Of a stretch of DNA of 32,888 nt, positions 223 to 5,114 are shown in pieces. This DNA comes from an uncultured Bacteroidota bacterium (GTDB taxonomy: Bacteria; Bacteroidota; Bacteroidia; UKL13-3): NCBI GenBank assembly GCA_903927505.1, contig CAIYNF010000159.1, forward strand, positions 1-32,888. Direction: 5' to 3'. A program made the position numbers and the translations under genes. Every line of letters starts with the position of its first letter. Within the stretch, counting starts at the first letter, position 1. Below the pieces are notes generated by a model. It was not told the origin of the DNA and searched no databases. It worked only from the letters and a program-made list of their open reading frames with translations.

Positions 223-1872
<1,650 letters not shown>

Positions 1873-1893
1873 TTATTTATTTGAACAATAAAA

Positions 1894-2181
1894 TTAAAGT
1901 GTGGCAAAAATGTCACTTTCACGCATAATCAAATAATCGTTTCCTTCAAAACTGATTTCTGTGCCTGCGTATTTTCCATAAAGAACAACATCACCTGCTT
2001 TTACAGCTGGTTTGTTTCCTTTTTCATCTAACTCACTTACCGAAATAACGGTACCTCTTTGTGGTTTTTCTTTAGCAGTATCAGGAATAATGATACCTGA
2101 AGCTGTTTTTTCTTCTGCTGGTGCAGGCAAAACAATCACTCTGTTTTGTGTTCCTGCAATTGGTTTTAATGAAATTGACAT
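1894..2181 (-). CDS. groES: Co-chaperonin GroES (10 kDa)
   Basis: This is the heptameric lid of the GroEL chamber. At 95 residues it has the usual length. It carries the typical N-terminal phrase [20 protein letters not shown], the mobile-loop stretch [19 protein letters not shown] (about 24-42) and the later [11 protein letters not shown] motif. It is the first gene of the groESL operon. The start ATG has only an A-rich leader (aaaaagtat) rather than a Shine-Dalgarno site, which is normal for this phylum. The predicted transcript start from the -24/-12 element gives a leader of roughly 30 bases. I saw no CIRCE operator (TTAGCACTC-N9-GAGTGCTAA) in this leader, so HrcA control is not supported. 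Confidence 0.97.
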
Positions 2182-2480
2182 ATACTTTTTGTGTTTATTT
2201 GTTGTGTTGTACCCTCTTTATGCGAAAGCTGTGCCAAGGCAAAAATGCTGACAGTTTTTCATATTTTGGCAACTTACAATAGAATTTCGGGAAACTTTGT
2301 CTATTTTTCAAATAAAATTAGGGTCGAACGCAACCCATTTGCAAGGCATTATGACTTATGAGCAAGGTATAGGGTGCGTTTTAAGATAATAACGCGCAAA
2401 CCAATAGACAATAACTTACAAATTAGACCTTTGAGAAATTGTTAAATGAAAATTGTAGTGATAAATTAGAAAAAGTTAAA
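2182..2480. other. Divergent intergenic region groES / lipoprotein
   Basis: About 300 bases without a supported gene. It contains the sigma-54-like promoter for groES, and an imperfect inverted pair AACGCAACCC (2327-2336) / GGGTGCGTT (2372-2380) of unknown meaning. The plus-strand side upstream of the lipoprotein is very AT-rich with no clear TAnnTTTG promoter core. No RNA gene was recognised. Confidence 0.5.
2221..2237 (-). promoter_or_regulatory. Sigma-54-like -24/-12 promoter of groESL
   Basis: On the minus strand the sequence TTGGCACAGCTTTCGCA matches the sigma-54 pattern TGGCAC-N5-TTGCA, with the GG and GC pairs at the required 12-base offset and one mismatch (TC for TT at the -12 element). 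It lies about 41 bases upstream of the groES ATG, so the start would fall near 2210. The match and spacing are seen; use by RNA polymerase carrying sigma-54 is inference. Confidence 0.6.
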
Positions 2481-2950: not shown

Positions 2951-3514
2951 ATGTTGTTTAACGAATCCGATATCATCAAAGGTTGTTTGGCAGGCGAAAG
3001 AGCCAGTCAGAAGGCCCTATATGAGCATTTTGCCGGAAAAATGTTAGGCGTTTGCATGCGTTATGCCAAAGACAGGGCAGAGGCCGAAGACATGCTGCAG
3101 GAGGGGTTTTTGAAGGTTTTTCAAGGAATTTTTAAGTTTAAATTTGAAGGTAGTTTTGAAGGATGGGTGCGCCGCATTATGGTGTACAATGCCATTAACC
3201 TTTACAAACATAGAAGCCGGAAGTTTCAGGAAGATTTAGACCAAGAGAATTTTGATGCGCCTTTTCATGATAATATACTCGAAAGAATTTCTGCCAAAGA
3301 GATTATTGCATTAATTCAACACATGCCAGAAGGTTACCGGGTAATCTTTAACTTATATGCCATAGAGGGTTATTCTCACAAGGAAATAGCCCAAAAACTA
3401 AATATCGCTGAAGGAACCAGCAAATCGCAATATTCCCGATCCAAGCAGTATATGCAGGGTTTATTGGCCAAACATTATCAGATTTTAAATGAGCCATTTG
3501 AAGCAGCAAAATAA
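2951..3514 (+). CDS. RNA polymerase ECF-type sigma factor
   Basis: A 187-residue group 4 sigma factor that directs RNA polymerase to a small regulon, normally released from an anti-sigma partner by an envelope signal. Region 2 spans about 20-90, with ALYEHFAGKMLGVCMRYAKD, AEDMLQEGFLKVF and a region 2.4-like GWVRRIMVYNAINLYKHR. Region 4 spans about 113-172, with MPEGYRVIFNLYAIEGYSHK and the helix-turn-helix EIAQKLNIAEGTSKSQYSR. Region 3 is absent, as expected for ECF factors. The downstream gene overlaps it by 26 bases, so the two are translated together. That partner carries a single membrane helix behind a short cytoplasmic segment, the usual anti-sigma layout. No autoregulated promoter could be recognised upstream. 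Confidence 0.93.
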   Translation: MLFNESDIIKGCLAGERASQKALYEHFAGKMLGVCMRYAKDRAEAEDMLQEGFLKVFQGIFKFKFEGSFEGWVRRIMVYNAINLYKHRSRKFQEDLDQENFDAPFHDNILERISAKEIIALIQHMPEGYRVIFNLYAIEGYSHKEIAQKLNIAEGTSKSQYSRSKQYMQGLLAKHYQILNEPFEAAK

Positions 3515-5114
3515 TTTTGAGGAGAAGTTGAAGGAACAACTTGATGGCATGGAATGGAAGCCGTCTAATTCCTTGTGGGATCGCATAGAACAAAATATGG
3601 ATGCAGATTCCTTTGAGCCCGCCCTGCAAAATAAACTCGCAAATTATTCTCTTGAACCTCATGCGGAAGTATGGGAAAATGTGGAAGCCCAGCTTCCAGA
3701 GAAAGATAATAGAAAAGGATTTTTGTGGCTAAGCGTTATTTCTTTTGTATTGCTTGCCAGTTTTGGTGCGGGCTATTGGTTCCGCGAAGTGGAGGTAGAA
3801 AACAAGGTAGCGGTTAATGCTGCTGGTCAATCAAATACTTTTCAGCAAGCGCAAACTACTAACAAGGTTTCGGTTCGAACCGACAAAAATGAAATAGAAA
3901 AGGCAAAGGAGAAAGTTAGCAGCAATGCCCCAAAGGATAAGCAATCCATCCAAGTAAAAGCGGCTAAACAATCTATTAAGAAGGTTAAACAGAATGAAAA
4001 TAATTTACTTGCCTTGCGTTCTCCTCAGCGTGCTAAAAAAGCATTAAAGGGAGCCAGTTCTGCTCGCACTAATAAGCTAGGGAATGGCAACACTTTATTG
4101 GCAATTCAATCTGTTTCTACAATTGGTGGAACGGTTATTTCACCCTCAAATATTGTTGCAGGTATAATAGATGCAAACCGTTCACAAAGCGTCAATGAAA
4201 ATTTGGCCAATCCATTGGGTCGTGAAAACGAACCCAAAATTTTAGATGCAGCAAGCATTCCAAGCAATCCTGCCCCAAATGTTAATGTAAAAGAAATTCC
4301 TTCTGCTTCAATTTTAATGGGCAATGCTGCAGATACTTTTGCAGAAAACAAGCCCTTTAGAGGCAGCAGTTATATTGCACCCGAAGAGAACCTTACAAAC
4401 TTCTCTTTAACTGCATTTGCTGGTTTAAATTGGGGTGTGATGCAATTAAAAATGCCCGCTACAAGTAATAATGCCAATATTATTAAAATAGCCAATCTCC
4501 AAAATTCTTACAACTTGCGTAAAAGCATGGAAAGTGCCAGTATTGATTTTACTGGCGGCTTGTTACTTAATTACCATTTTCATAAATCTTGGTTTGTGAG
4601 TATTGGTATTGGCATGACTAACTTAAAACAAGACGTAAGTTTCAATACCAAAACCGCACAACAGCCTAATCCTGTTTTGGTACAGCCGGTTAATCAATAT
4701 GTTCACCCAGGAGATTCAATCATTGCGGGCGCCGGCAATACTTATGAAAACAAATATAGTTTTACAGAAATTCCACTCTTATTGGGTTATCAATTACCAT
4801 CGGAAGGCGATTTTAATTTTAGCCTCATGGGTGGCGTAAGTTATGCGCAACTAAATTTGGTAAATGCTTTTATGCCAGATCCAGCTTGTATTGGTATATT
4901 GGTGGTTACAGATAAAGAATCGTTTCCTAAATTTAAAGATGTGTTATTTCTAAACATAGCACCAGCTGTTTCCTATAAGCTAAATGGTTCTGTTGAAATT
5001 GGCAGTATGCTACAAGGAAAAATGGCACTCAACAATATGGTAGGAGATTTGCAATGGGTGCAGCAAAGGCCTTATTTACTTGGTTTGAACCTATTTATCC
5101 GCAAGCATTTTTAA
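3489..5114 (+). CDS. Anti-sigma-like protein with C-terminal outer-membrane beta-barrel
   Basis: A 541-residue protein whose start overlaps the ECF sigma gene by 26 bases. Residues 1-76 are charged and soluble with two similar segments, KPSNSLWDRIEQNM (24-37) and EPHAEVWENVEAQL (56-69). Residues 78-98 form one hydrophobic helix (LSVISFVLLASFGAGYWF). Residues 100-300 are a Lys/Asn/Ser/Ala-rich low-complexity linker. Residues about 303-541 alternate like beta-strands (NFSLTAFAGLNWGV, WFVSIGIGMTNLKQDV, FTEIPLLLGYQLP, FNFSLMGGVSYAQLNLV) and end in a terminal Phe (LFIRKHF), as in PorT-like barrels. The order suggests a cytoplasmic sigma-binding part, an inner-membrane helix, a periplasmic tether and an outer-membrane barrel. 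No known anti-sigma domain was identified; the role is inferred from architecture and gene overlap. Confidence 0.8.
   Translation: MSHLKQQNNFEEKLKEQLDGMEWKPSNSLWDRIEQNMDADSFEPALQNKLANYSLEPHAEVWENVEAQLPEKDNRKGFLWLSVISFVLLASFGAGYWFREVEVENKVAVNAAGQSNTFQQAQTTNKVSVRTDKNEIEKAKEKVSSNAPKDKQSIQVKAAKQSIKKVKQNENNLLALRSPQRAKKALKGASSARTNKLGNGNTLLAIQSVSTIGGTVISPSNIVAGIIDANRSQSVNENLANPLGRENEPKILDAASIPSNPAPNVNVKEIPSASILMGNAADTFAENKPFRGSSYIAPEENLTNFSLTAFAGLNWGVMQLKMPATSNNANIIKIANLQNSYNLRKSMESASIDFTGGLLLNYHFHKSWFVSIGIGMTNLKQDVSFNTKTAQQPNPVLVQPVNQYVHPGDSIIAGAGNTYENKYSFTEIPLLLGYQLPSEGDFNFSLMGGVSYAQLNLVNAFMPDPACIGILVVTDKESFPKFKDVLFLNIAPAVSYKLNGSVEIGSMLQGKMALNNMVGDLQWVQQRPYLLGLNLFIRKHF

Follow-up and report, generated by a model that had tools for sequence, protein, structure and literature searches.

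A Dma-type sigma/anti-sigma pair predicted in an uncultured Bacteroidota bacterium, with a duplicated N-terminal motif and a candidate promoter element before a secreted protease gene

The locus and the architecture of the 541-residue protein

The window, that is, the whole 32,888-nt stretch of DNA analysed here (contig CAIYNF010000159.1 of an uncultured Bacteroidota bacterium), carries an ECF sigma factor gene followed by the gene of a 541-residue protein, together with divergent groES-groEL genes, a small lipoprotein-like ORF and a predicted promoter. The features are as follows.

223-2181, minus strand: groEL and groES, divergent neighbours, linkage only
2330-2356, plus strand: GCAACC-N16-TGACT, predicted promoter of ECF type for the (lipoprotein)-sigma-dma operon, from conservation of the element
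2439-2816 (likely start 2481), plus strand: small lipoprotein-like ORF (DUF6970) between promoter and sigma gene
2951-3514, plus strand: ECF sigma factor, Das-like, 187 aa (ORF, Pfam, NCBIfam)
3489-5114, plus strand: gene of the probable Dma-type anti-sigma factor, 541 aa (ORF, alignment, AlphaFold2)
3516-3599, plus strand: presumed sigma-binding motif, copy R1, residues 10-37 (alignment, motif model, fold)
3612-3695, plus strand: presumed sigma-binding motif, copy R2, residues 42-69 (alignment, motif model, fold)
3711-3785, plus strand: predicted inner-membrane helix, residues 75-99 (hydropathy, AlphaFold2, K/R bias)
3789-4379, plus strand: predicted disordered periplasmic tether, residues 101-297 (pLDDT below 50, 16% mean identity)
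4389-5111, plus strand: predicted 8-stranded OmpA-like outer-membrane barrel, residues 301-541 (Pfam, AlphaFold2, Foldseek, VIA-align)

The sigma protein matches Sigma70_r2 (PF04542, E 3e-13) and Sigma70_r4_2 (PF08281, E 9.8e-16), both over the cut-off, as well as TIGR02937 (E 7.4e-25); it has Sigma70 regions 2 and 4 only, which marks it as an ECF sigma factor, and its NCBIfam matches are to general ECF models only. The overlap between its gene and the following one, pointed out in the initial annotation, is confirmed and amounts to 26 nt, between the 3' end of the sigma ORF and the 5' end of ORF 3489-5114. The DUF6970 ORF is inserted at the locus only in the source species and its nearest relative, and groES-groEL lies head-to-head with the sigma-dma pair in virtually all close relatives having the two-motif form of the protein (223-2181 against 2951-5114 in the window; loci L031-L055, L060 and L063). 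In the region upstream of groES (2215-2260, minus strand), a TGGCAC resembling the sigma-54 -24 box was seen, by eye only; the groES gene of F. psychrophilum is reported to be under sigma-54 control (PMC9723704).

An AlphaFold2 model of the 541-residue chain, built from 31 sequences, reproduces the order of segments that had been read from the sequence at the outset, namely an N-terminal part, one membrane helix, a linker of about 200 residues and a barrel, and hydropathy and an alignment of 31 full-length chains agree with it. The N-terminal part consists of four short helices (residues 7-19, 27-36, 42-51 and 59-68) with a moderate pLDDT of about 50-75, and when folded separately it again gives four short helices and the membrane helix at moderate confidence. 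The only transmembrane helix of the chain (residues 75-99) follows this domain and has its hydropathy maximum, 1.87, at residue 86; since K and R are commoner on its N-side than on its C-side in 30 of the 31 homologues, the N-terminus should be cytoplasmic. The linker (101-297) has pLDDT below 50 and is without structure, as in the tether of Dma proteins (see below), and a disordered chain of about 200 residues would be long enough to cross the periplasm. Residues 301-541 form eight transmembrane strands with pLDDT mostly 88-97, and the chain ends in ...RKHF. The top match of this part among solved structures is OmpA (Z 15.9, 167 aligned residues, 2.7 A), and NspA and OmpW reach Z 15.2 and Z 14.0, respectively (VIA-align; Foldseek). 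In addition, OMP_b-brl_2 (PF13568) matches residues 336-453 at 28.2 bits, narrowly above the cut-off of 27, so that model, structure match and Pfam all point to a C-terminal outer-membrane beta-barrel. The initial annotation, which had placed the barrel at 303-541 and had proposed a full-chain structure prediction as a check, is therefore not refuted by that prediction, only the start of the barrel being moved to about 301-305.

A PDB sequence search with the 541-residue chain returned nothing useful, and in Pfam the chain matched neither an anti-sigma domain nor the FecR family (no match to the latter at E <= 1). A FecR-type anti-sigma factor was ruled out by this missing FecR match and by the 8-strand barrel in the same chain, a chance fusion or frame artefact by the architecture being kept over 30 homologues, and a close paralogue within the source genome by the 541-residue query matching itself only.

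Conservation in Bacteroidota and relation to the Dma family

Homologues were searched in 60 genomes (the source genome and 59 relatives) at E <= 0.001, and the gene is present in 37 of them, comprising the source, 17 of the 18 other genomes of the genus, 17 of the 18 other genomes of the family and two outside the family; the family homologues are partly weak or partial, and the two matches outside the family are weak. In the near set, the mean identity to the window protein is 62% for the N-terminus and 50% for the barrel against 16% for the linker, and because of this the linker is read as a tether. Its length is 171-258 residues in the near set and 127-258 overall, and high-identity ends joined by a drifting linker have the pattern of two working ends on a tether, as far as sequence can tell. 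Within the barrel, R344, E348, D409, G414, Y423, E427 and P429 are invariant or nearly invariant in the alignment. A long, disordered and poorly conserved linker would also tolerate cleavage, and cleavage of anti-sigma factors is known from cell-surface signalling; routine cutting of the linker would split the anti-sigma part from a small outer-membrane barrel of the ordinary kind, with no envelope-spanning chain at steady state. We consider this quite unlikely, since the fusion is kept across divergent relatives in which the linker drifts so far but stays within its length range, where separate genes would suffice, and since no conserved cleavage-like site is seen in the alignment of 31 chains.

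The pairing and adjacency of the sigma and dma genes are retained in the relatives. Beyond them, profile matches were found in 53 of 247 genomes spread over the phylum, and at most of the loci examined among these matches a sigma gene comes immediately before the matching gene, whose N-terminus holds one copy of the motif. When named genomes were scanned with the sigma alignment, 80 loci were retained, at 78 of which the downstream ORF was readable; nearly all of these 78 ORFs have a similar F...P..(V/L)W..I N-terminus and a transmembrane helix, so that the helical N-terminal motif is common to sigma-adjacent genes across the phylum, and OMP_b-brl_2 was matched in 29 of the 39 long partners scanned (at least 400 aa). 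The architecture thus recurs beside ECF sigma genes of other Bacteroidota, a search that the initial annotation had proposed as a check. Many partners (L134, L138, L158, L167, L175 and others) have the motif and the transmembrane helix in only about 190-390 residues and are probably without a barrel. Furthermore, the source genome has a second sigma gene (L081, G000:C120 near 24873), which is followed by an ORF with a single N-terminal motif (MLEDNNHIDKLLQKGMENFEPMAPEGVWENIAQQL). A natural sigma-Dma fusion (Dma3-like), with which the complex could be modelled in a single chain, was not found among the loci retrieved. The missing anti-sigma Pfam match would suit a gene that is no anti-sigma factor and merely neighbours the sigma gene; the conserved overlap and pairing, the N-terminal motif paired phylum-wide with the same sigma group and the experimental precedent of Dma1 and Dma2 make this highly improbable.

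Dma proteins are a dual membrane-spanning anti-sigma family of Bacteroides, confined to Bacteroidota and encoded beside ECF21 sigma genes, with an N-terminal sigma-binding domain, a transmembrane helix, a long disordered tether and a C-terminal barrel (PMC13088901). In Bacteroides thetaiotaomicron, the pairs Dma1/Das1 and Dma2/Das2 have been described (Pardue et al. 2024 and 2026), and removal of dma1 or dma2 leads to more vesicle production via das1 or das2 (PMC13088901); the cytosolic region of Dma1 is reported to bind the sigma factor (as cited in PMC12077199). A pair of the same layout in P. vulgatus (M0N98_03760-03761) is named alongside a similar pair of B. fragilis, and a toxin acting at the surface raised expression of the P. 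vulgatus sigma gene 33-fold (PMC9308784). By the published domain order, the window protein is probably a member of the Dma family, the Bacteroides proteins being compared by description. It shares with them the single transmembrane helix, the disordered tether, the barrel and the adjacent ECF sigma gene, and its helical N-terminal part would correspond to their sigma-binding domain. It differs in lineage, perhaps in its duplicated N-terminal motif, and in its predicted target, an M43 protease here, while nigD1/vesiculation and PULs are named in B. thetaiotaomicron. Likewise, M0N98_03760-03761 and the EcfO locus of B. fragilis have a sigma gene and then the gene of a large anti-sigma factor whose chain, by prediction, crosses the periplasm and ends in an outer-membrane barrel, and the P. 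vulgatus pair is induced by attack on the outer membrane, but the responses are different, with O-antigen length and NigD-like proteins in these systems and oxidative stress for EcfO. FecR/FecA systems likewise use an inner-membrane anti-sigma factor to signal the state of the outer membrane to an ECF sigma factor; however, they divide the task between two proteins, FecR and the TonB-dependent receptor, whereas here there is one chain without a FecR match. The suggestion of one-chain envelope control without a separate FecR/receptor pair is hence supported by the match to the published layout (PMC13088901, PMC9308784), but its implied novelty is not supported, because both architecture and mechanism are already known from the Dma family and its earlier relatives in Phocaeicola and B. 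fragilis.

Predicted promoter element and protease target

Of the 24 family loci examined, 21 have the sequence CAACC-N-TGAC(T) before the sigma start, with a spacer of 16 (17 at one locus). In the window, the element at 2330-2356 precedes the lipoprotein-like ORF 2439-2816, and in other family loci it stands directly upstream of the sigma gene. Because the element stands before the operon of the 187-residue sigma factor itself, this factor would be the reader of GCAACC-N16-TGACT. The strict pattern RCAACC-N16-TGACT occurs at two sites in the source genome, one at the sigma operon and the other 121 nt before the gene of a secreted protease with M43, PKD and Por_Secre_tail domains, the last being a type IX secretion signal, and no element was found upstream of other sigma genes in this genome. 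All 17 genus genomes with a protease ortholog (about 48% identity or more) have at least one copy with the element, scored at 10 or 11 of 11 within 200 nt, a score equalled by no more than 1 of 200 shuffles; these 17 promoters come from related genomes and are strong conservation rather than 17 independent events. Most of the paralogous M43 copies taken as a control were little or no better than shuffles, and several combine GCAACC with another -10. The strict pattern occurs 39 times in 11 relatives and its reversed control 18 times, so that many of the sites outside the sigma and protease promoters may be chance. A wider regulon by one-mismatch search was dropped, because the source genome gave 25 real against 19 control sites, which is background, and four relatives were similarly at background. 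More distant sigma genes of the group have GCAACC-N16-(T/C)GTCT-like sequences above the shuffled background, a likeness such as would be expected of an ECF promoter family. A promoter-like element was also seen before a secreted TPR-repeat-like protein (L235 in G008; G005 and G010 have comparable sites), which is a possible further target. The ECF-like promoter and the M43 metalloprotease target are new here, as predictions, and so is the head-to-head placement of the pair with groES-groEL in close relatives. The link of an ECF sigma factor to type IX secretion genes is shared with PorXY-SigP of P. gingivalis and the SM6 ECF promoters of F. psychrophilum, but SigP is under a two-component system, and the predicted target here is cargo of the type IX system, not its machine.

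These promoters also bear on a reading in which the barrel is an anchor only and the tether or membrane region senses stress of the inner envelope or of chaperones. The adjacency of groES-groEL in nearly all close relatives fits chaperone-stress sensing, and the many sigma partners of about 190-390 residues mean that sensing without a barrel must exist. Yet the barrel residues named above are strongly conserved and the linker is not, the known relative responds to a toxin that attacks the cell surface (PMC9308784), and the promoter element is on the protease, not on groESL, for which no promoter evidence of a tie to the sigma factor was found. Thus we regard this reading as rather unlikely, and the adjacency of groESL may be plain synteny.

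The duplicated N-terminal motif and the proposed mechanism

The N-terminal part, described initially as a charged segment (1-76), keeps its place in the order of segments, but it is a tandem duplication and not just charged. A motif of about 28 residues, F-E-x3-L ... P-x4-W-x2-I-E, occurs twice, at residues 10-37 and 42-69. Copy 2 scores a mean of 18.0 bits with a model built on copy 1, copy 1 a mean of 21.8 bits with a model built on copy 2, and none of 5200 shuffles reached these means. The distant family members L056-L059 have a single copy in the alignment. Among the named partners, the part before the transmembrane helix is short (<60 residues) in 63 and longer in 15. Counted by eye, most of the longer ones have two copies, while a Saprospiraceae protein of 684 aa (L163, 8006-10057), long enough for a barrel, has about seven. 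N-termini with several tandem copies, again by eye, were seen at L119:2047-3912 and L125:1815-3479 in another family. The presumed hairpins are one in most of these predicted two-membrane receptors, two in the protein family studied here and several in a few. A literature search found no tandem anti-sigma motifs, which is weak evidence, and the duplication of a helical hairpin in the presumed sigma-binding region is new here, as a prediction. A single hairpin could bind one whole sigma factor or a portion of it. It is a tentative idea, and on balance an unlikely one, that this countable repeat makes a multivalent sigma holder, in which the copy number sets the number of sigma molecules held and the sharpness of release and the protease may act on the sensed target.

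Architecture, conservation, promoter element and the co-occurrence of the element with its target are computed here, and release of the sigma factor upon loss of the anti-sigma factor is taken by analogy from the published Dma work. We assume that the N-terminal helical hairpins would keep the ECF sigma factor bound at the inner membrane, and that the chain would cross this membrane once, span the periplasm as a flexible tether and end in the 8-stranded outer-membrane barrel. Changes at the outer membrane, or ligand binding to the surface loops of the barrel, might then cause release of the sigma factor, probably via a change or cleavage of the tether or transmembrane region, and the freed sigma factor would transcribe its own operon from GCAACC-N16-TGACT and, in the source genus, the secreted type IX-type M43 metalloprotease gene. 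We put the probability of this Dma-type mechanism as a whole at roughly 0.8.

This analysis adds uncultured Bacteroidota to the gut Bacteroides in which the Dma design was described and, together with the wider survey, suggests that it is a common route in the phylum linking the outer membrane to transcription. The predicted promoter with its single conserved target would make a small regulon, and the variation in the number of presumed sigma-binding hairpins offers a way to study how such receptors bind their sigma factors and let them go.
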